DNA of 64,000 bases from Lepidurus packardi (taxonomy: Eukaryota; Arthropoda; Branchiopoda; Notostraca; Triopsidae). The stretch covers positions 7,398,565-7,462,564 of the forward strand of contig JAKZAN010000001.1 in the NCBI GenBank assembly GCA_023053545.1, written 5' to 3'. Under the pieces are notes generated by a model. It was given only the letters and a program-made list of their open reading frames with translations, ran no database searches and was not told the origin of the DNA. Shown here one piece after another: positions 11,250-61,411 of the stretch. The position numbers and the translations under genes were made by a program. Within the stretch, counting starts at the first letter, position 1. Every line of letters starts with the position of its first letter.

Positions 11250-12340
11250 TTTGTGTGGAGTTCAATGGTTTGGATGCGGATGGAAACGTAAATTACTTGC
11301 AGCTTCACTGAAAGGACGTGCGGCTGAAGTCCGCAAATACTTGTCTCAAGAAGTTAAAGAAGACTATTTGGCCATGCTCCTCGAATGAGAAAACTTCTTG
11401 GAACAGAATCCGGCAGTGTTTCAAACCAAATTCGCCTCCCTGAAACGCGAAAAAGGGACTTAAATTGCGGAATTCGCCAGTAAATTGCGTAGTGTGCACC
11501 AGCGGCATATCTGAGTTTGGATGAGAAATCCCGAGACATATTCATTAAACCAAGATTACTTGACGTGGTGGAAAATGAAGATTTACGAGTACAACTGCAA
11601 GTGGATTCACCGCCCACTCTCGACAAACATATTACCAGAATTGCAGCTTATGAGTCGGTCTTCAAAGCTGAGCAACTGAGGAAAAAGGTCGGAGTTGGAC
11701 TAGATACCGAGGTGGATCGCCCACAGGTTGCGGCCGTTGGACGCAGTGACAGTACGTTGGACGACAGGTTACGGAAATTGGAGTGTGCACTGACTGATAT
11801 TTCCAAGATGTTTCACGAGCGGAAGAAACGAAATAGCAGAAGAACACGCTTCAACTGTGGAGAAGGACATTTTAGGGCCAATTGTCCACAGCTCAAAAGA
11901 AATCGACTCGCAAACACCGAACAACAGGTGTCGGGAAACGCGAACTAACTGGCGATGTGGACCCTCAACCAGTTCGCAAACCGAAGGGGACCGAGATATC
12001 GGACATCATGGCTGTAAATTTTGCTACTTTTGTGGAAGGAGAATGTGGATCTTGTCCTGCAGCGATGTTAGTGGATTCTGGTTCGGCGATTACACTTGTT
12101 AAAGACTACTTAGTAGATAAGAGTCGTTTTATTGTACAACCAATGCAGATCAACGCAAGAACTGTGAACAATCAAGTATTAAAGATTAATGGCAAGACCA
12201 TGGTTCCTTTCCGATTAAATGGTTACCAATTTGAGTGGCAAGCATTCACTTCCACGGAGATCGCCCATGATGTAATTCTGGGGCGAGATTTTTTACAAAA
12301 CAATCAAATGCAGGTAGATTATGAAAGCTTGAAAACTTGA
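11250..12340 (+). pseudogene. Retroelement gag and aspartic protease remnants
   Basis: Gag-like sequence begins by about 11270 and carries several in-frame stops. A CCHC-type zinc knuckle is recognisable at about 11848-11892 (C-x2-G-H-x4-C), but its first Cys codons look altered. In the 11882-12340 frame there is a retropepsin active site (LVDSGSA), the Asp catalytic triad of retroviral-type proteases, followed by a second conserved ILGRDFL block. The protease part is intact for about 110 residues. It would have processed the Gag-Pol polyprotein. Confidence 0.85.
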
Positions 12341-12717
12341 ATGGAAAAACGGTGAAGTAAAACTGACAGACGACCCAAGTTTGTGTCGAAAAGTGTTCGT
12401 GATCGAAGCAATATCCGTACCAGCGAATCATGAAGTGATTACATCAATGAAACTCCCTAGCGGATTAGGAAGCCATGGCTGTGCGTTGTTTGAAGCCAAG
12501 GACAAGTTTCTTGGACTGGAATGGAGTTCATTTAGCACGAACGCTAATAAACCCAGGTGACAAAAACCTTCTTGTTCGGATTGCAAATTGTTCCTTCCAA
12601 AGGATTTATATCAAACCTGGAGGGGAATTAGGTCTGTGATAACGGAATACTCACCTGTTATGGTCATCGAAAAAGAGACGAATTCAGAGGGCTGTCCCGA
12701 ACAGTTACTTCCATTAT

Positions 12718-14350
12718 TTGACACACCTAATTTGGCGAAGAAAGAGCAAGGACTTTTGGAGAAGCTGCCATAGAAACAGAAAAGTCATCTCAATGAGCTC
12801 TACGGACTTGGGGCGTACCAACGTATTTCAGCACCGCATACATACAGGAAATCATCATCCTGTTCGTATGCCACCAAGAAGAGTTCCGGCGTATTGGGGA
12901 CATGAGGTTGAAGATATGGCAAACAAGTTGCTGGAACAAAACATTATCTCCCCCTCAAACAGTCCTTGGAGTGCCCCAATTGTGATGGTAAGGAAGAAAG
13001 ATGGATCGTTGCGGTTGTGTGTGGACAATAGGGTATTAAAAGCCGTTACGACAAAGGACGCATATCCTTTACCGCGTATCGACGACACCCTTGATGCACT
13101 GCAAGGATCAGTATATTTCTCAACATTGGACTTGATCAGCGGCTATTATCAGCTAGAATTGGATACAGCAGACAAGGAAAAAACTGCGTTCCAGACTCCA
13201 CAAGGATTATTTCATTTCAACGTGATGCCGTTTGGATTATGTAACGGCCTGGTTCCTTTCAAAGGCTTATGGAATTGGTGGTTCGAGGATTGCAGTGGCA
13301 AACGTGTTTAATTTACCTAGACTATATAATATTGTTCAGTCGGACTTTCCAAGAACATTTAAATCGCCTTGACGAATATTTTTAGTCGACTGGGAGACGC
13401 CAATTTAAAAATCAAGCCGTCAAAATGTAAGTTGTTTTGTAAAAGTGTGGTTTATTTGGGCCACGTGGTAAGCAAGGAAGGGATTACTACGGATCCCGAG
13501 AAAACTAGCGCTATTACGGAATGGCCTCGACCTTGCTGTAGTAATGAGCTTAGTAGTTTTCTTGGTTTGGCGTCTTACTATCGCCGGTTTGTGGCTTCGT
13601 TTGCTGACATCGCCAAACCATTATACGGATTAACGGAAAAAGGGTTCCTTTCGTGTGGACAGTGGAATGTGAGGAAGCTTTCGCCCGGTTGAAAGAAGCA
13701 CTTATTTCAGCTCCTGTTTTGGCTTTTCCTGACCTTTCGCAGCCTTTCCTTGTGGACTGTGATGCTAGTAACGTCGGTTTAGGCGCGGTTTTGTCGCAAA
13801 TCATTGATGGGATGGAGCGTCCAGTGGCATTCGCCAGTCGAAATTTGTCTAGAGCGGAAACGCGGTATTGTGTCACAAGGAAGGGAGTTATTGGCAATGC
13901 AGTACGCACTAACACAGTTTAGCCACTATTTGCTGGGGCGACCTTTTATGATGCGCACAGACAATAGTGCAGTTAGCTGGCTTAAAAGATGCAAGAACCC
14001 TTCGGGGCAAGTCCTTTGCTGGCTGAGCCTGTTTGAGTCGTACCAATTATCAGGAGAACACAGGCCAGGGAAGAAACACCAAAATGCTATGTCCAGGCGA
14101 CCTTGTTCACAATGCTGTATGATGGAAGGTCAAAGTGAGAAGGAGGAAGATGAAGATGACTGGGAAATTCCTTGCATGTGTATTGCCAATGTGACCTCAA
14201 GGGAGTCTCAAGTTGTAAAAAACGAGTCTGGATTAGTTGTAAGTGCGCAAGGCAGTGATTCAGATTTGCAAGAAGTCCAACAATGGATTAGAGACCCTAG
14301 TTCGGTTCCATCGTCACCGAAAAACTTAAATACTGTGTTGAGAAGTTATT
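12718..14350 (+). pseudogene. Retroelement reverse transcriptase and RNase H remnants
   Basis: The 12718-13311 frame holds RT motifs: the SPWSAPIVMVRKKDG block, LDLISGYYQ and MPFGLCN. It breaks near 13250. The region expected to carry the catalytic YxDD box (about 13300-13330) is degraded. The frame resumes at about 13369 with LGHVVSKEGI and SFLGLASYYRRF, typical of the Ty3/gypsy thumb and connection. RNase H follows in two frames (13653-13922 and 13804-14352), with DCDASN and TDNSAVSWL. The enzyme cannot be made from this copy. Confidence 0.9.
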
Positions 14351-15804
14351 GAGCTCAACGTGGACAGTTAGTTTTCAAAGATAACTGTGTTTACCGTGAG
14401 TGTCAAACTCCTTCAGGGACTAAAATTTTACCGCTGGTGCCTTCGAGTTTAGTGAGTGACATTTTAAAGAGCTATCATGACGATAGCATGGCAGCTCATA
14501 TGGGCAGTAATAAAATGCTGTGGAAGTTGCAGGAAAGATTTTACTGGCCTCGATTGAGACAATCTGTGGAGGATTGGTGCAGGAAGTGTGTGAAGTGTAT
14601 GGAACTCTCCTCTCCTCAGAAAACTAAGGCACCTTTGAAACCGTTGATATCCCGTTTTCCAAACGATATTGTGGCCATGGATATTTTAGGCCCGCTTGCT
14701 GAAACGCAGCAAGGAAATAGATACATCTTAGTGGTTGGTGATCTTTTACTAAGTGGATCGAGGCTTATGCAATTAAAAATCAAGAGGCTAAGACAATAGC
14801 AGAAAAGTTTGTTTGTGAGTACATTTCCAGATATGGTGCGCCGGTACAATTACACATGGATCAAGGTAAGAATTTTCAATCATCAACACTGAAAGAAGTG
14901 TGTAAGTTGCTAAATGTTCGAAAGACCAGAACAACACCTTATCACCCCCAGAGCGACGAGTTTGTTGAAAGAGCAAACCGTACAGTACTTGCAGGACTTA
15001 GCAAAATTATTGACAATGGTGACTGGTGACGACACATGGAACGTTATACTTCCCCATGTTTTATTGGCGTATGGCACAAGTGTACCAAGTTCCACGAAGA
15101 CGACTCCGGCATTTTTGCAGTTAGGGAGGGAAATACGTCTTCCTGCGGATCTAGTGTATGGTGGTGGCAATTTGCAAGAGAAACCCATCTCGACTACTGA
15201 GCATGTGAAAACAGTGGAGAAGAATTTACCAGAGGCGTATGAAGTAGTTCGGAAGCAACTGGATCTGGCCCAACAGTTCCAGAAAACGTACTACGATTAG
15301 TCAACTTCAAGAAAACAGATTCGAGTTGGGGATCACGTGTGGTTGCACAGACCTGTACCACCAAAAGGGAAATCGCCTAAATTTCACAGACCTTGGGTAG
15401 GTCCTTGGACGGTGCAAAAATTAATCACATAACAAGTGGCTAGGATAAAACATTGTGTGAATGGTTCACGAAAAATTGTTCATGTGAATAACTTAAAACG
15501 TGGACAAGTTGTTCAATCTGTGGAAGAGCCCCCACGGCAAGCGCGTGCAGTTTCAACTCAGATTAAAGATACTGTAGCGAGTCGTATCCCTCGAACATAT
15601 ACACCCCGAAGAGTGGTGGATTGGGAAGAAGGGGGCGATCAGCTGAACGAAGAGCTGACGGATGCAGACTTGGGGACAAGTGGAGCTCCGTTTCTACCGG
15701 ATGAAGGACAACGGCAAATGGAGCAGCAGTCGGAAAGACCACAAAGAGTCAGAAATGTTCCGGAAAGGCTTGTCTATTATGAACAAGGGAAGCCTATTGG
15801 GTAG
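14350..15804 (+). pseudogene. Retroelement integrase remnants
   Basis: An HHCC zinc-binding N-terminus is visible at 14474-14600 (H-x4-H, later C-x2-C), then the catalytic core with the first Asp in MDILGP, the second in HMDQG and the Glu in DEFVERANRT, spread over two frames. The C-terminal region after a TAG at 15298-15300 has the GDHVWLHRP and GPWTV features of Ty3/gypsy integrases and a Pro-Arg-rich tail ending at 15804. At least three breaks make it inactive. Confidence 0.88.
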
Positions 15805-52142: not shown

Positions 52143-53655
52143 TTACTGCCAGTCCTCGTCGTCTTCAGTTGCAGCAGGACCAGCGGGCTTCGGTGGAGGT
52201 GGAATTAGGGCGTTCACACGATCCATTGCTGAAACTGCATTCTGAGTTTCGGTTTGACCAACAACAATCCCAGAGATTCCCTAAACATTTTGTTGGCAAA
52301 ATATTTCACGGGTTTAATTTGTTTTTCTAAGTACTTTCCGACGCATTGATAATTTGCTGAATAAGTCGGCCATAAGATCCCCAGCAGGAGCAGCCGAAGG
52401 TGTCGTTTTTTCCAATTTGGCGATCTCTGCTTTAGTTTTCTTCAACGCTTTGGTTCCTCCAGCTTTTCGGATAGCGTCCATCAGATTCGACCTATCAGCC
52501 TCTGGTGGCTATGAGAATGCTAATTTGTTATAAGAGTACCAAAGGTTAAAAAAATTACCAATACTTCTTCTCGTTTTTGGGTTTCCAATTTTGGCATGGA
52601 CATGGGCGGGGGAGGCGGTGTCAGGTCTTGGTGGATTACAGGTAGCATAGGTGGGGGTGGAGGCGGTGCAGGAGCAGCAGGAATAGGAGCAATGGCGGCA
52701 ACAGACACTATGACTACAGGTGGAGGAGGAGGAGGGGGTTGGTGTGAGGTTTCAATGGACTGGATATCCGGAAGTTCAGGCAAACCTTCTAAAATGGCTT
52801 GGTGGATGTTGAGGTTAAAGTCCAATGAGGGAGCAATACCTGGACCCAAATCGCTCTCATAAATGACATCCGTTGCAATACCTGTAAGATTCATCCCATG
52901 AGACTCATGCCGCATACCTTGAAAATTAAGATTTCGAATGTACCAGGTAAGTCCGGCAAGTCGAGAGGCAAGTCTAATTGCGGTACGTCGCCTAAATGAG
53001 GGCTGTAGAGGTAGGACAAAGCTGTCGGTCTTTCGAGACCTTCTCTTTCAAGGATCGAATGTGGAGCATCCGCTAAGGTCACGCCCATCTCTTCTGCAGG
53101 CTGCGGAGAAGGTACTTCATGGATGCTTTCCAAAGTATCAAAAACGAGTAATCCTCCCACAGAATGCATGGGTGCAGATGCAACTGCGTGTTCAGGCTTT
53201 TGAAATGGAACCTGGAATATTTTGCTCTTCCCCTAGACATTAAAAAATGAAAATTGTGTAGGTTAGACGTAGTGATCTACTTGTGGTTCACAACGAGACG
53301 TTGGTATACTGGAACGCTTGATTGCTGACGTAGAAATTGGTATTAATGCCGCGGTTTCAGCTGACAAGTTTTGAACGGGGTACTTCGAAGAAGAGAAAAC
53401 TGTTACAGCTTTTTTGCTCCCGACCAGTTTTTGAACTTTCTCTTGGGCTAGGTTAGTGCGGCTGTTGATCTCTTGAATTTTCGTCTGGCATTCACAAATC
53501 CTATCCCTAATCCTGTCAAAGATGTCCGAGGCCATTTGATTTACATAGTCGAGCGTATCTGCTATTTGAATTATGGACTCATCCGGCCTCAAGTCAGTCG
53601 AAAGCAAACTGACTTCAAAAGCTGTGTGAACAACCATTGTTTTGAAAACTAACAA
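52143..53655 (-). CDS. WASH1: WASH complex subunit 1 (WASP-family actin nucleation promoter)
   Basis: Exons on the minus strand: 53655-53281, 53232-52944, 52881-52559, 52508-52335 and 52280-52143, in phase, 432 residues. The N-terminal WAHD1 region reads STDLRPDESIIQIADTLDYV and KVQKLVGSKKAVTVFSSSKYP. The conserved LPDLPGIATDVIYESDLGPG block crosses an intron. A polyproline stretch follows, then the VCA output region: WH2 (RSNLMDAIRKAGG), connector (DLMADLFSKLSMRRKGISG) and a C-terminal acidic tail ending EDDEDWQ. WASH activates Arp2/3 to build branched actin on endosomes. The start could also be the Met at 53637. The gene converges on the ELAPOR gene with 159 bases between stop codons, so the 3' UTRs may overlap. 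Confidence 0.95.
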
Positions 53656-54299
53656 GACGACAGGTTGGACTGCCGAATAAGCTGTGACAACGGAATGTTA
53701 GTAGTGGTGAACGTGGGTAGGTGGCTGTTCTGGGTTCGTCTGTTGGTGGTCTGTTGTGGTCGATTTTGAAATGTGTAGAGGTTTTTAGCTGTGCCAGTCT
53801 ATGATTTTTATTTACTGTTGATTTTTAAAGAAACGGCTTTGTTTGATGTCATGTCATTATTATGGCATTAATTATGGTATTCTGTAAGTCCTAAAACTAT
53901 TTGATATAGAGCAGAAAACGGACTTGACTGATAGGAGAAAAGATGGTCAGTAAAAATATGAAATGTTATCAAGTTATATGTATCAAAGCATTTATCAATA
54001 GATATTAAGTTGTATCAAAATTTATCAGAAATGCGAATTAAAATGCGAACCAAATGCGAAACGATAACGAACTGAAATTGCATGTTTTTTGTTTTTTTTT
54101 TATTGGCATGTTTTAATGGTTTGCTTTTTAGCTGTGATTTTTATTAATGTTATTAGCTGTGATTATAATATCAGAAGACATTTGCGTTATTGGTAGATAT
54201 ATATTTTGTAAGTTTTTCGCTAATACAGTGAATTCACTATTACATGCAATGCAAATACAAATCTAGGTTATTTAGAATAAAAATGTTGACAAAACAATA
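53656..54299. other. Region between WASH1 and the protease-RPA gene
   Basis: WASH1 promoter side and the 3' side of the next minus-strand gene. AT-rich, with repeated 'tatcaa' words at 53970-54030. No gene. Confidence 0.5.
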
Positions 54300-56796
54300 T
54301 TATTTTTTCTTGGTGACGTTGACGATTTCTTTTTTTTCTAGGTCTACCGTGAAGTCGAAGTCTTTTGTCGTTAGTAATTTCACGATGACAGCATTCGCAG
54401 TGTCTGGAGTCAGTTGTAGAGTTTCTTCTTGTTTGCAGAAGTCTTTTAGTATGGTTTCTGTCATCGATGCTTCGATAATGTTATTATCGTTGAAGAAACC
54501 CACTGTGCCTTGGAAAGTTAGTGGAGTCGTTTGTCTAAGTTGAATTTTTTTGCAGTTTGTGCACGTAATGGTAGGGTCATCGTTATCTGGAATGGTCGGT
54601 TGTCGTTCTGTTTTTTTTTTGCAGGCTAGGCAGGTTTGGAAAATACCAATGTTGCAGTGGGCTATGGCTTCCAGTATGATGGGCTCCGTTGTGTCGTCTA
54701 AAATGGGTTGCTGGATGTCCAGTTGGGCTTCTGTTCTTGTAAAGAACGATTGCTGCGTCAAGGCGAAGTTTTGATAATCTTGATTATAGATGACATCGGT
54801 AATTTCGTAAACTTTGTTTTTTTCGATAGTAACTGTTTGGTTTTTCCAGGTAATTAGTGTGGAAGTACAGGTATCGTCTCCAATTGTTATTTCGCGGAAC
54901 GTTTGCCCTTTGTTCGTTGTCTTCTCTTCGCTAATGTTTTGGATTTGAACGATGGTTTTGTAACGGGTGTCGGGAAACTCTATACAAGTTTGAAGTGTGG
55001 CTTGTTGCTGTTTTCTTGGCGAATAATTAAATTTGAGCGTTTGATTTGTCTCGCTGATTTGCGAAGATTGGGTAATCTTAATAAGATCGTATTTAGTTCT
55101 TTTTTGTGGAGTCTGACCTGAAGGTGAGCTATTCGGTAGGATTTGGATGGTGATGGGTATCTTGGCGGTCGAATAACGTTTAATTCTGCTATAGGAGCCA
55201 GCAATAAACGACAAACATTCTTCGTATGTATTGTCCGACGTCTGCAGAAAAAAGCGAAAATTTTGGCCGATAGCAGTTCTCACATACAAATTCTTTTCGC
55301 TCCTGTTCACTAATTTCTAAAATGTTACTCGGAAGATCATACACTAAAGTTGCAGTATTCTTATTTCTTACATTAGCGCATGGTGCTGTACTTTCCTTAT
55401 CCACATGAACAACTCCGATTTGTCTGTCAAATCCTGACTTAGGCGAAAAATGTGTTAGTTTGCAAAACGAGGAATGTCGATTTAATCCACGGCGCGTAGA
55501 AAATGTTCGCAGGCAATTCACACAAGTATTTTCATTCTTTTGTGACGTTTCACTGCCACTAAGTCTCTCCTCAATAGTCTTGGCCTTACTGATCTGTAAG
55601 TCTTCATTTCCTTCACACTTTATATTCTTAGGAGCGTGCTTACTGTAATAACTAAATGCTAAATCGTGAGTAGTTACCGTTGTCTTATTCTCTTTTGGCA
55701 AATCTGCATTCACTTTGTGGTATGTCATCACATTTAACAGCAATGTAGGCTGACAGCTGTCATCTAGATGTTGTACCTTTTTATTGTTAACGTTAATAAT
55801 ATCTTTCGGGAAAGCAAGGTCAGCATTCCTTTTATAGGTTTCTTTGCTAGCATTTGAACCAGTCAAATCAATTACTACTGGTACTTCGTTTCCATGTATA
55901 AGCGGAAAAGATTTCAACTTTTGCTTCATTTCAGTCGCGATGGTAAGGTCTTCTCCACAAAATGAATTTTGACAATCGTTCTTTTCTGATTTCAAATTTT
56001 TCGTATTATTCATTTTCGATTTTTTCGGTTTCTCTGATGTCTTTTTATCAACATCAGCAGGAAGGCACATATTAGTAGCATAGCTAGCAGTTATATTACC
56101 GATAGTTACAGCCCGTGTTAGCCTTTCATTGCATATACCACGACTACACCTACCTACAGTTTGTACAAGTGTATTCAGACGTGCATTTCCTAATTCTTTG
56201 CAACAAACTGGCACAATGTCATACTGCGGATTACCATGCGATAACACCGAACCATACATGTTCCGTAGGTACCCAATTAATTCATGGAATTCTAGTTCTA
56301 GCAGGACAGCAGTACCCATACTATCAGGTTTACCAGAGGCATCTCGTGCATGCGAATCAAAAAGAAAATATTTTCCATTGCGCTCCATAATGCTTGTACA
56401 ATGTGAGCAACTAATAAAAAGCACACCAGCACAGCTATGTGCAGCTCTTACGGAATCTTCCAAAGTGGTAGCATATGGATGAGTTTCCCGTGGACATATA
56501 AAACCAAACGCATCTTGCCCATGCAGAAACGTCTCTAATATACCAAATTCTTTAAAATCCAAGTATCCCGGTAGTTCGGCAGAAAAAAAATACCTCTCAC
56601 GGTGCTCGTAAGTTCGGTATATTTCATCTCCCATCGTCATTATATCACACATGTTTTTTTCAATCCACTCGTTAGGAGGAACCAAATAACTCCATGCAAT
56701 AGATACAAAAGCCATCGGTGTGCACTGAGCACCACGACTAGAAGCAGAAAAAACATGCGCAAATTGCGAATACGGCGCTCTACAGATCAACCTCAT
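54300..56796 (-). CDS. Predicted fusion: peptidase C76-like domain, zinc finger and RPA-like OB-fold region
   Basis: Two long minus-strand frames (56796-55189 and 55310-54300) overlap. A 46-base intron (55287-55242, GTATGT...TTTTTTCTGCAG) joins exon 56796-55288 to exon 55241-54300 in phase, giving 816 residues. Residues 1-170 look like a cysteine protease of the herpesvirus large-tegument (C76, deneddylase-like) fold: a Gln at 11, Cys 25 in GAQCTPM, and Asp147-Ser-His149 in FLFDSHARD. A C-x2-C-x12-H-x4-C finger lies at 425-445. The second exon has an OB-fold-like stretch (about 596-670) and a C-x2-C-x19-C-x2-C zinc ribbon (about 707-733) as in RPA70 DNA-binding domain C. Neither frame is interrupted, so the gene is recent or under selection. 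Helitron-like elements combine such parts with Rep/helicase, but none is seen here. Host gene, captured gene or element fragment all remain possible. Confidence 0.65.
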
Positions 56797-58683
56797 GCTT
56801 TAATACCAGAAAAAACGAGCAGATGTATTATTAATTAACTGTGTAAAAGAAAGCAACCGTATAGTGAAATGTAAATAAATATTTTCAACCACGAATTACC
56901 TATCAATCGTGAAAAATCCAACAATCTCAATAAACAACGGAATCCAGCAATTATCCAAATCTCCAACAAATAAATCGTCCGAATTCCAAAACTTCTAGTA
57001 CATAAAATAGAAGTAATCAGCTCACGAAGGTAACAGGAAGTGCTGAAACATATGAAACTGTTATTCATTGAACATTACCTGATACTCCTAAAAATTCCAA
57101 AAGATAACCAGCCGGAATAATTATTCAGAAATTATCCACTTATCATACGGGAAAGAATCGTCTAATGACAATGCAAACAATGAGTTCAGTTCGCAAAGGC
57201 ACTGCAAACAGTACAGTACATAATATAAAAGTAATCAGCTCACGAAGGTAACAGGAAGTGCTGAAACATATAAAATTGTTATTCATTGAATATTACCTGA
57301 TACTCCAAAAAATTCAAGCCGGAATAATGATTCAGAAATTATCCAGTTACCATACGGGGAAGAATCGTCTAATGACAATGCAAACAATGAGTTCAGTTCG
57401 TTCAGTTCAGTACTGCAAACAGTACAAAACAAGAAACAAGTCTAATTAACATTGCAGTCACAAAAATTAGAGCAGGTGACTGCCGGATCGGAGAAAACAA
57501 AAAACAAGAATTTTTCCAAATATCCAAGCAAGAAATCAATCGTCCAAACAGGAAAAATGTCTACCCGTTAGATATAAGATAAGAAGAAATCAGTCCACAA
57601 AACTAACGTAAGTGCTGACATAAGAAGAAATCAGTTCACAAAACTAACGTAAGTGCTGACATAAGAAATATCAGCATAGAAAGCTACCAATAAAAACAGA
57701 ATACAATTTTAGCAATTGATCTTATTTTTACCTATGAGTCCTCAAAATTCAAACTCTGCACGATATAGTAAGCTTTTGTCACAGCTAATAACAAACGTTT
57801 ACCAACGTTGATCTGCTACCCTGTCCTATTGATCCTACAGACGTGACGTCACAAGCCCAAAAACTATCACGTGCTGGTACGTTCTAACCCGTTTTGTGAT
57901 CCAATTTGCCCACTTCTGAGAATCTCATGAAAGGAGCACGAACGACCTGGCCGATGGCAATATGTCCTTATCTCCCACCCACCAAACCCACCCCAAAATA
58001 ACACAGCCCTTATGGGAAAAACCCGAGCCAAGCTCAGCAACCCACCCTCCCACTGGCAAGGCTAAAGTCTGGACGATATATTAAGCTGTTGTCACAGCTA
58101 ATAATTATGCTTCACTTGGATGGAAGACAGCACATGCTTGTATATATGATTTGTTTAGGGGTGCGACACAACGGGAGTGGGCGTTTTGGGCAATATTATG
58201 GTGTCACTGCATTGGCGAATGAATGATTTTTTTGCTTGATACGGATTAACACCCCTTTCTGACTCCTCCCTCTAGCCTTGTTCCAACTTTCAGGACAAAC
58301 CAGCTGCGTTGTGGATAAAACCAGCGCAGAAGCCGGGTTTTCCTTCACTCTTCATCGATCAGTGTATCGTTTTGCTGTTTTCACCTAACAACTAGTAAGT
58401 CAATGTTTTTTGCTTTTTTCTTAGTAAATATATGCAAAAACAGTAAGTTCAGATGTTATCAAACTTAAGTGGGACAGCATTACGAAGGTTTTGTTTGACC
58501 TTCACTCTGTCAGGCTTGTTACGTCAATAGTCCCTTTTGCCCGTCATGCTCGCCTTGTGCTATTCTTATAAAAATTTTACTAAAATGACAAATCACTATT
58601 AGATAACATACTTTCCTGCTTTTATGTTTTTGCCGTTTCAAAGAGGTATTGAATATTCGCAGGCTGCCTTCCCTTTTGCAATC
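56797..58683. other. Intergenic region holding direct repeats and the transketolase promoter
   Basis: Besides the repeats at 57000-57690, a segment with 'ttgtcacagctaata' occurs twice (57775-57791 and 58090-58105). On the right, 'catcgatcagtgtatcg' near 58354 resembles an arthropod initiator. A non-coding first exon of transketolase may end at AACTA|GTAAGTC near 58395. A CAG acceptor at about 58662 then precedes the ATG at 58684. Confidence 0.45.
57000..57690. repeat. Direct repeats on the 5' side of the protease-RPA gene
   Basis: Two copies of a unit of about 210 bases (from 57000 and from 57219) share 'aatcagctcacgaaggtaac' and 'gaatcgtctaatgacaatgc' in the same order. Farther right, a related 42-base unit with 'aatcagtNcacaaaactaac' occurs twice in tandem (about 57578-57661). 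All four share the core ATCAGNNCACRAA followed by an AAGTGCTGA. They lie 200-900 bases upstream of the gene's start. Confidence 0.75.
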
Positions 58684-61411
58684 ATGGCGGATGCTAAGAA
58701 AATCCAAGATTTGCGCCTGCTGGCCGACCGGCTTCGTATTCATTCCATCAAGTCTACCAATGCCTCGAAGTCTGGGTAAATTAAAATGTTGATTATATCA
58801 GTATTATTGTACACATTCCTTTCGTATAAGTCACGTACGAGTAGTGTCATTTACGCTTGATCGCTCACTTATATCCCATGGCCCCCTAACATGCACACTT
58901 TCTATACCGTATCTTTGATGCCGACCAATTTCTTTCTGTTTTTGTCCTAAGAATGGACTAAGGTCACTCACCTCTTCAAATCCTTGCACCAATAAGCATA
59001 AATGTTATTGTATTTATGGTTTTTTCTCTTCGGTAGGCATCCCACATCCTGCTCTTCGATGGCGGACGTCCTGTCGGTACTTTTCTTCCACGAAATGCGT
59101 TACAGTCTGGAGAATCCCCGCCACCCCGGTTCGGACCGTTTTATTTTGTCCAAGGGTCACGCTGCTCCAATTCTGTACGCTGCCTGGGCTGAAGCGGGTC
59201 TTTTTCCCACCAGCGAGCTCCAAAAACTTCGCGAGCTTGATAATGACCTAGAAGGTACAGCTCTTTCCCCCTTGCAATTAACCTTGTAACTTTTCCTCAT
59301 ATTACACCCTTCCTTTCACTAGGTCATCCTACCCCACGATTGAACTTTGTGGATGTAGCCACTGGTTCTTTGGGCCAAGGCTTGAGCGTGGCTGCTGGCA
59401 TGGCCTACATTGGCAAAAACTTGGACAACGCCGATTATAGGACATACTGTTTGTTGGGTGACGGCGAAAGCGCGGAAGGTTCTGTCTGGGAAGCTTTGCA
59501 CTTTGCTGGTCACTACAAACTGAGCAACTTGTGCGCCATCTTTGATATTAACCGTTTGGGTCAATCTGAAGCCACTGCATTGCAGCATGACATGGCGACG
59601 TACCGTAAACGCTTAGATGCCTTTGGTTGGAATGCTATTGTTATCGACGGCCATGATATCGAGGAAATCGTAAAAGTAAAACTCTTTAAAAGTTCTTTCG
59701 TTGATTTTCGGATGTTTCATAAAATCATTCGTTTTTTTTTCCTTTCATTGTAGGCCTTTGAAGAAGCACATAAGAATACGGAGAAACCTACAGCTATCTT
59801 GGCTCGCACCTTCAAAGGATACAAATTCCCCACGATTTCAGATTCTGAAAATTGGCATGGCAAGCCATTGGGAGATAAGAGTGATGAAGTTATTAAAGTA
59901 AGTTTTTGTTTTAATTTTCTTAATTTTTCTGAATTCAGTCGCTATAATAGCACTTAATTATCTGCTAGGCTCTTTTGGCGGGAATGGATGGAAATGATGA
60001 CGTCACTGTATCCATTGCCGCTCCTCCCGGTGAAGCTGTCAAGGTAGACTTGTCGAACATCACATTGTCATCTCCTCCTAGCTACAAATTGGGCGAATTA
60101 GTCGCTACCCGTCTGTCTTACGGCACTGCTTTGGCTAAGTTGGCTAAAAGTCATCCTCGTGTAATCGCTTTAGATGGGGATACGAAAAATTCAACGTATT
60201 CTGACAAGATCAAAACTGTTGACCCCAACCGGTATATCGAGTGCTACATCGCCGAACAAAACTTGGTGGGTGTGGCTATGGGAGCTGCCTGTCGTGACCG
60301 CACCGTGGCGTTCGTTTCGACTTTCGCTGCCTTCTTTACCCGTGCTTTCGACCAGGTATTATCTCTTTCAATACCTTCTTAGGAGTTTTCTTCTCATGGG
60401 TTCTATGGTGTAATGGTTAGCACTCTGGACTTTGAATCCAGCGATCCGAGTTCAAATCTCGGTAGAACCTTCTTTTTTCCTTTTCTTCGTTATATTTTAA
60501 CCTGAATGTGGGTTGTTAATTAATTAAGTAACTTTGTTATATAATATTATTGTATCTTTTTCTTATATTTTTTTATTATTAGATATAATTTTGTATTGTA
60601 AACACGTTTCTCTGTCTATAAGTATATAAGTTTGATTTCCTTATGTGGTAATTTTTATATCTTTTCCACGTCTTCAGTTGCGTATGGGCGCCATTTCGCA
60701 AACTAACATCAACTGTGTGGGATCCCATGCTGGCGTGTCTATTGGCGAAGATGGTCCTTCCCAAATGGCTTTGGAAGATTTGGCCATGTTCCGTTCCATT
60801 CCTACTGCCACTGTATTCTACCCCAGCGACGCTGTCTCTTGCGAAAGGGCAATAGAATTAGCCGCCAATAAGAAAGGCATTTGCTTCATTCGCACGTCCC
60901 GCCCCAACACGGCCGTCATTTACGCCAATGACGAAGACTTCCAGATTGGCCAAGGCAAAGTTGTACTGCAACACGATAGTGATGTGATACTTATCGTTGG
61001 AGCTGGTGTTACCCTGCATGAAGCTTTGGCGGCTGCCGACACTTTGGAAAAGGAGCATGGTATTCTTGTGGCGGTCGTGGATCCCTTTACGATCAAGCCC
61101 ATCGATGAGCAGTTGCTGATTGCCCAAGCTAAACGCGTTGGTGGTCGTGTACTGACGGTTGAGGATCATTATCCTGAAGGTAACGTAACCATTAACAATT
61201 ATCTGTGTATTATAAATAAATAAAAAAAACTTGATTAGGTGGCTTGGGAGAGGCAGTGACTAGTGCGTTGTCCATGGAGCCCAATACGTTAGTCAAGCGT
61301 ATGGCTGTGCGCGAAGTTCCTCGTTCTGGTCCTCCTCAAGCATTGCTGGAGAAATACAATATTGACCGGAATGCTATTGTGAAGGAAGTTCGCGGCTGGC
61401 TCGGAAACTAA
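58684..61411 (+). CDS. Tkt: Transketolase
   Basis: Exons 58684-58775, 59037-59254, 59323-59675, 59754-59897, 59969-60355, 60678-61179 and 61239-61411 join in phase to give 622 residues, the usual animal length. The thiamine-diphosphate-binding motif is [13 protein letters not shown] with the following DINRLGQSE. The pyrimidine-binding domain has [15 protein letters not shown] with the catalytic Glu, and [19 protein letters not shown]. The enzyme moves two-carbon units between sugar phosphates in the cytosolic pentose phosphate pathway. No breaks. The 322-base intron 60356-60677 carries a tRNA gene on the same strand. The gene converges with THOC7 214 bases away. Confidence 0.98.
60399..60470 (+). 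tRNA. tRNA-Gln (UUG anticodon), inside a transketolase intron
   Basis: A 72-base cloverleaf. The acceptor stem GGTTCTA pairs fully with TAGAACC. The anticodon stem CTGGA/TCCAG encloses CTTTGAA, giving anticodon TTG at 60432-60434. The D arm has TGGTGTAATGGTTAGCA and the T arm has the B-box GTTCAAATC. A run of T follows directly (60473-60478), a Pol III terminator. No intron in the tRNA. CCA is not encoded, as normal for a eukaryote. Confidence 0.96.

Follow-up and report, generated by a model that had tools for sequence, protein, structure and literature searches.

A putative spliced protease fusion gene in Lepidurus packardi is very probably an internally deleted Helentron copy

The window, that is, the whole stretch of 64,000 nucleotides analysed here (C1:7398565-7462564 of the 108.6-Mb Lepidurus packardi assembly), contains two long overlapping frames on the minus strand, listed at 54300-55316 and 55189-56799. 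The original prediction joined them into one gene through a 46-base intron, and the frames do fit: excision of 55242-55287, a segment with GTATGT at one edge and TTTTTTCTGCAG at the other, links them in phase into a product of 816 amino acids. The first frame (55189-56796, minus strand) is the truncated 5' part of a Rep-helicase gene. It encodes a viral-tegument-like deubiquitinase domain (VTD; 56167-56796, minus strand) bearing Cys25, Asp147 and His149, a linker, one C2H2-like finger, the first half of another and about 25 out-of-frame residues; the finger, judged by eye, agrees with the zinc finger announced for exon 1. The second (54300-55268, minus strand) is an RPA-like gene with an RPA/SSB-like region and a CxxC...CxxC motif. 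It is devoid of the first 49 positions of the 373-residue stop-to-stop frame found in the parent element, including the ATG at position 23. Taken alone, the window frames yield only sub-threshold Pfam matches: Herpes_teg_N reaches E 0.029 and 14.5 bits with the first frame, below the cut-off of 25, and the second has no clear Pfam match.

Comparison of the first frame with the whole genome returned 81 scored matches of 87 candidates. Residues 1-510 are complete, at 99-100% identity, at 17 places besides the window, 11 of which lie within an uninterrupted frame of 2722 amino acids. Further families occur at ~55%, 44% and 39% identity, with frames of up to 2658, 1342 and 2214 amino acids. One full copy, C6:7803142-7822619, read as two pieces (L009 and L010), is used here as the reference parent. 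Its 2722-residue frame encodes the VTD protease, zinc fingers, a DUF6570 domain, a Rep, a PIF1 helicase and an AP-type endonuclease. Pfam identifies PIF1 (2e-24), Helitron_like_N (9.1e-22), on which the Rep call rests, DUF6570 (2.3e-14), zf-C2H2 (1.2e-9, best stretch 504-524) and Exo_endo_phos (1.1e-5); the latter match, at residues 2572-2712, is barely over its cut-off (25.8 against 24.5 bits), and an N-terminal Herpes_teg_N match is sub-threshold (17.5 against 25 bits). Among solved structures, the best matches of this frame are PIF1 helicases, the Helraiser Helitron transposase is found at 1.6e-11 through its helicase part, and residues 14-202 match the VTD structure 8ADD at 4.5e-5. A search of a large protein collection with residues 1-250 gave none of 268 candidates at E <= 0.001.

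The presence of Rep and PIF1 in the parent frame bears out the proposed link to rolling-circle elements. The statement that no Rep or helicase is nearby holds for the window copy and fails for the element family, since the parent 2722-residue frame carries both. A Rep and a PIF1-type helicase also share one frame in the families L031 and L035, and the C-terminal AP-type endonuclease is present in both. The third family, L033, has a truncated frame of 1342 amino acids devoid of Rep and helicase. No OTU domain was found among the Pfam matches of the parent and other-family frames, and Herpes_teg_N is absent from the Pfam listing for family 2. To note, the parental stretch of 8 kb that separates the RPA-like frame from the Rep-helicase frame (L010:2554-9500 and L009:1-1147) contains short frames only, together with direct repeats 1.6-1.8 kb apart. 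One of these short frames, of 115 residues (L010:6044-6391), matches Glyco_hydro_63 just over the Pfam cut-off (23.3 against 22.4 bits) and is perhaps a captured exon or a chance match. Retroelement-like frames, identified by eye, follow the truncated frame of the third family on C8 (L033:4462-9900 and L034:3-2018).

In the parent, a separate frame of 373 residues encodes the RPA-like protein. It has an ATG of its own and lies on the same strand, ~8.2 kb downstream from where the 2722-residue frame ends. Eighteen places in the genome share the top score for this frame and five more are full length, two of which have one internal stop. As to the predicted RPA70-like OB fold and zinc ribbon, the CxxC...CxxC pattern and a weak SSB-like profile match are found, and no Pfam OB family matches the RPA-like frames of the parent or of the other families. 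The profile match to SSB chains has an E of 0.014-0.017, and of 0.037-0.045 with a broader alignment, at which unrelated chains score alike. Cholera toxin B, eIF2-beta and Cas7 chains are thus listed beside the SSB and SOSS-B1 chains; they are taken as chance matches and call for caution with the RPA label. A PDB search with the frame alone gave a single chance match (E 0.71), and structure prediction of the window RPA part from its single sequence was uninformative (pLDDT 31). The RPA label is therefore a weak one, and the protein is expected to bind single-stranded DNA.

Alignment with the parent reveals how the two genes came to overlap. Window 55267-57383 is 99.86% identical to the first parent piece over 2117 bases compared, the match stopping at 57383 solely since L009 ends there, and window 53652-55268 is 99.81% identical to the second piece over 1617 bases. 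The matches meet at an internal deletion junction (55267-55270, minus strand), with a 2-base overlap, CC, at 55267-55268, and a base at 55269 that is unlike the parent. Relative to C6:7803142-7822619, 15,025 bases are missing. The break points lie in a zinc finger of the Rep-helicase (about residue 510) and at position 50 of the RPA-like frame, and the junction, 55268/55270, falls within the proposed intron. The latter (55242-55287, minus strand) is a chimaera, of which 55270-55287 come from the Rep-helicase zinc finger and 55242-55268 from the RPA-like gene. Its donor GTATGT corresponds to Val-Cys codons in the parent (EFVCENCYRIFTRSSNLQRHFKIC, a C2H2-type finger interrupted by the break), and its acceptor TTTTTTCTGCAG to F-F-L-Q codons of the RPA-like gene. 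The F.F.LQT stretch around the acceptor is found in all four rows of one alignment, two of them being window and parent, and in the five covering rows of a broader alignment of six RPA-like rows. Both signals are coding sequence in the parent, where neither has to serve for splicing, and the comparison does not support 55242-55287 as an intron.

The in-phase fit of the two frames can be put in proportion by counting. Within the frame overlap and 150 bases on each side, 76 in-phase GT..AG pairs would delimit introns of at least 30 bases (signal strength unweighted, no shuffle control), so that an in-phase pair is no evidence for an intron; the proposed pair ranks among the better-looking of the 76. 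A 141-base probe spanning the junction matches whole at the window alone among 40 scored places (of 50 candidates), the right half only matching at 21 and the left half only at 18. The junction thus most likely arose in the window copy and is not a family trait. A real two-exon gene would imply that the deletion made a new intron out of coding pieces, and that the host now expresses the VTD-RPA chimaera, once spliced, and makes use of it. Its donor and acceptor look good and VTD residues 1-510 are uninterrupted in the window, but the junction is seen once among the 40 scored places, 76 in-phase pairs exist in the stretch, the limits of the 'exons' interrupt a zinc finger and the beginning of the RPA-like region, and an identity to the parent above 99.8% makes the copy too young for selection to show. 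A functional fusion is therefore extremely unlikely: what was read as a single gene corresponds in the parent to two frames ~8 kb apart.

Cys25, Asp147, Ser148 and His149 are invariant in all five rows of an alignment covering four families (the window and parent rows being identical), in line with the predicted Cys25/Asp147-x-His149 geometry. The Helitron VTD structure 8ADD is matched by the window VTD at E 1.6e-6 with the single sequence and 1.5e-17 with the profile, which supports the announced C76-like, tegument-like protease. AlphaFold2, run on the window VTD in the same single-sequence manner, gave a mean pLDDT of 37, uninformative as to a papain-like fold. The VTD profile also reaches, at a marginal E of 0.063, a chain named large tegument protein deneddylase. 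The herpesvirus large tegument deubiquitinase/deneddylase class (C76) has in common with the VTD the Asp-x-His active-site arrangement and this weak profile match; direct similarity is marginal, as the Herpes_teg_N score given above also indicates. An inserted virus related to herpesviruses, the reading to which that chain might point, is vanishingly improbable: the profile matches the Helitron VTD far better, and in the five parent frames submitted to Pfam neither a capsid nor a DNA polymerase family is found, the Helitron Rep and helicase being present instead.

Between families, five of six pairs give a Nei-Gojobori dN/dS of 0.17-0.32 for the VTD; dS is saturated in the sixth pair and close to saturation in two of the other five. 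From these ratios the VTD appears to be held under purifying selection in the transposon lineage. The VTD would presumably be an active enzyme. According to the portions of PMC9741609 drawn on here, 8ADD is a zebrafish Helitron VTD (DrT1-VTD2 in the text and table note, DrT1-VTD1 in the data statement), zebrafish VTDs cleave ubiquitin and partly NEDD8, and most non-viral VTDs found lie in Helitrons of the Helentron subclass. The same portions suggest that the deubiquitinase protects transposition proteins, and mention that VTD domestication has happened elsewhere.

The ends of the element were delineated by comparing copies. Most alignments with other copies end at 53650-53652 on one side and at 58102-58105 on the other, a few extending some bases beyond. 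The whole Helentron deletion derivative (53652-58104, minus strand) thus measures ~4.45 kb, with its 5' end at about 58104 and its 3' end at about 53652. Both ends were lined up for 10 of the 33 two-ended copies, the window being among the 10. All ten have TTAGCTGTGACAACAGCT at the 5' end, the edge there being TT; their 3' edge reads TTGT, and their flanks differ. A 5' subterminal repeat, AGCTGTGACAAC (58088-58099, minus strand), lies in a short palindrome, AGCTGTgacaACAGCT, and its reverse complement forms a 3' subterminal repeat (53680-53691, plus strand), 28 nt from the 3' end. Allowing one mismatch, AGCTGTGACAAC is found three times against 0.29 expected, and all ten copies have subterminal repeats at both ends. 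The 3' repeat is followed by a possible hairpin, for which RNA folding parameters give a 6-bp stem (one of its pairs being G-T, no shuffle control) that leaves 6 nt to the element edge. At 57775-57786, ~310 bases in from the 5' end, AGCTGTGACAAC recurs with one mismatch. L024 exhibits an additional repeat of the 5' end outside the element edge.

At least 33 two-ended copies are present in the genome: 12 long ones, measuring 19.5-19.9 kb, and 21 short ones of 2.1-9.5 kb. These counts are lower bounds, each left end being assigned the closest right end no more than 26 kb away: of 40 left ends, five unpaired ones and two in spurious 7-base pairs were excluded, and of 45 listed right ends 40 were used (five short partial ones being dropped), seven of which are unpaired. 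For one pair on C4 the length could be either 2.4 or 14.5 kb. The 2722-residue frame is present in nine of the 12 long copies, the other three having a diverged VTD region with stops. In these three (C1:6280231-6300151, C1:7187648-7207567 and C3:5695773-5715609), the 3' half is as in other long copies and the 5' ends are at 97%, a pattern suggestive of an older sister lineage or of recombination. At C46:103380-103420 and C8:21562-21602, a 3'-end-like sequence (90% over 41 bases) starts 7 bases inside family-1 5' ends, and an RPA-like frame of family 2 comes within the next 1 kb. These sites look like two Helentron families placed head to tail.

The short copies form a graded deletion series, as non-autonomous derivatives would give: VTD residues 1-510 are kept in 6 of the 21, window included, and lost entirely or in part in the other 15. 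The original prediction had named disrupted copies with a Rep/helicase next to them as the mark of an ordinary Helitron fragment; the 21 short two-ended copies, and the Rep and helicase of the parent, fit that description. One might argue from the six retained VTDs, and from the between-family dN/dS of 0.17-0.32 in five of six pairs, that a short derivative has been selected whose truncated VTD-zinc-finger protein represses or helps the full elements in trans. Such selection is very improbable, as 15 of the 21 short copies are without all or part of the VTD, break-points differ among them, and the selection signal comes from whole families and not from short copies.

With its parent, its deletion, its shared ends and the series of short copies in hand, the window locus is almost certainly a non-autonomous, internally deleted Helentron copy. 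The full element is a transposon of the rolling-circle kind encoding a Rep-helicase-endonuclease with an N-terminal VTD deubiquitinase, and a separate RPA-like protein. An internal deletion of ~15 kb brought parts of these two genes side by side, and Rep and helicase have left no trace in the window copy because both lay in the deleted part. Both ends, which presumably hold the cis signals, are retained in the copy; it could still be mobilised in trans by full copies and may be mobile at present. To judge from their families, the single-stranded DNA-binding protein would help rolling-circle transposition and the deubiquitinase would perhaps protect it. The protease, the finger and the RPA-like protein do exist, as parts of two separate genes, and protease and RPA-like protein are of kinds already known from such elements. 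The notion of a captured or domesticated module does not survive: the copy is near-identical to its Helentron parent and shows no sign of domestication, and a captured host module was rejected, both frames being parts of Helentron genes. There is a slim chance that a truncated VTD-zinc-finger protein lacking Rep and helicase (535 residues unspliced, or a VTD-RPA chimaera if spliced) is stable and catalytically active, and that it influences, in trans, the activity of Helentrons or ubiquitin signalling in the host. If so, the window copy would represent a young, initial stage of the path to domestication that has been suggested for VTD genes of animals.

Helentron ends, the AP endonuclease, the intronless RPA ORF and non-autonomous partners are described in the sections of PMC4067079 (Thomas, Vadnagara and Pritham 2014) used for comparison. 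The Helentrons and HINEs of these sections have in common with the present elements a Rep-helicase with a C-terminal AP endonuclease, subterminal inverted repeats and T at the edges. Their separate intronless RPA ORF, of 358 residues in mite, would correspond to the 373-residue stop-to-stop frame here, and their 3' stem-loop to the possible hairpin near the 3' end. Short derivatives more than 95% identical to their partner, reported there for Culex, are likewise found. Differences are also apparent: 28 nt separate the 3' repeat from the element edge, as compared to 38-60 nt in mite elements, and the passages mention OTU proteases where a VTD is found here. Unlike the HINEs they describe, the window copy is a simple deletion product with parts of two genes and a junction seen once. 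As to the zebrafish VTD Helitrons DrT1 and DrT2 (Erven et al. 2022, PMC9741609), the parts consulted place the VTD in the frame of a Rep-helicase with a C-terminal AP-type endonuclease, as here, with a Cys and Asp-x-His active site, and the homology extends to the solved DrT1 domain, 8ADD. In contrast to what is given there, further families are present here, no OTU is among the Pfam matches, and the VTD is known from sequence. The locus illustrates that an internal deletion can make two known Helentron genes resemble a novel spliced fusion gene. Several Helentron families in this genome carry a VTD, and three of these combine long open frames with near-identical copies, which makes the genome useful for asking why a rolling-circle transposon carries a deubiquitinase.

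The surroundings of the element in the window contain a few further features. The 3' end (53637-53652) is located ~14 nt upstream of a same-strand ATG opening a putative WASH-like frame (MVVHTAFEVSLLSTDLRPDE...), so named partly from the next frame (52520-53047), which matches Pfam WASH_WAHD at E 8.5e-4, below the cut-off. The insertion may have changed the promoter or 5' UTR of this WASH-like gene. Gypsy-type retroelement remnants, recognised by eye, are found at 11493-15804 as several broken frames, the reverse transcriptase at 12643-13311 alone being confirmed by Pfam. At Rfam gathering thresholds, a tRNA gene at 60399-60470 (70.5 bits) is the sole match in the window. It lies between two transketolase coding frames assigned by Pfam (59247-59753 and 60636-61223) and is therefore probably inside a transketolase intron.
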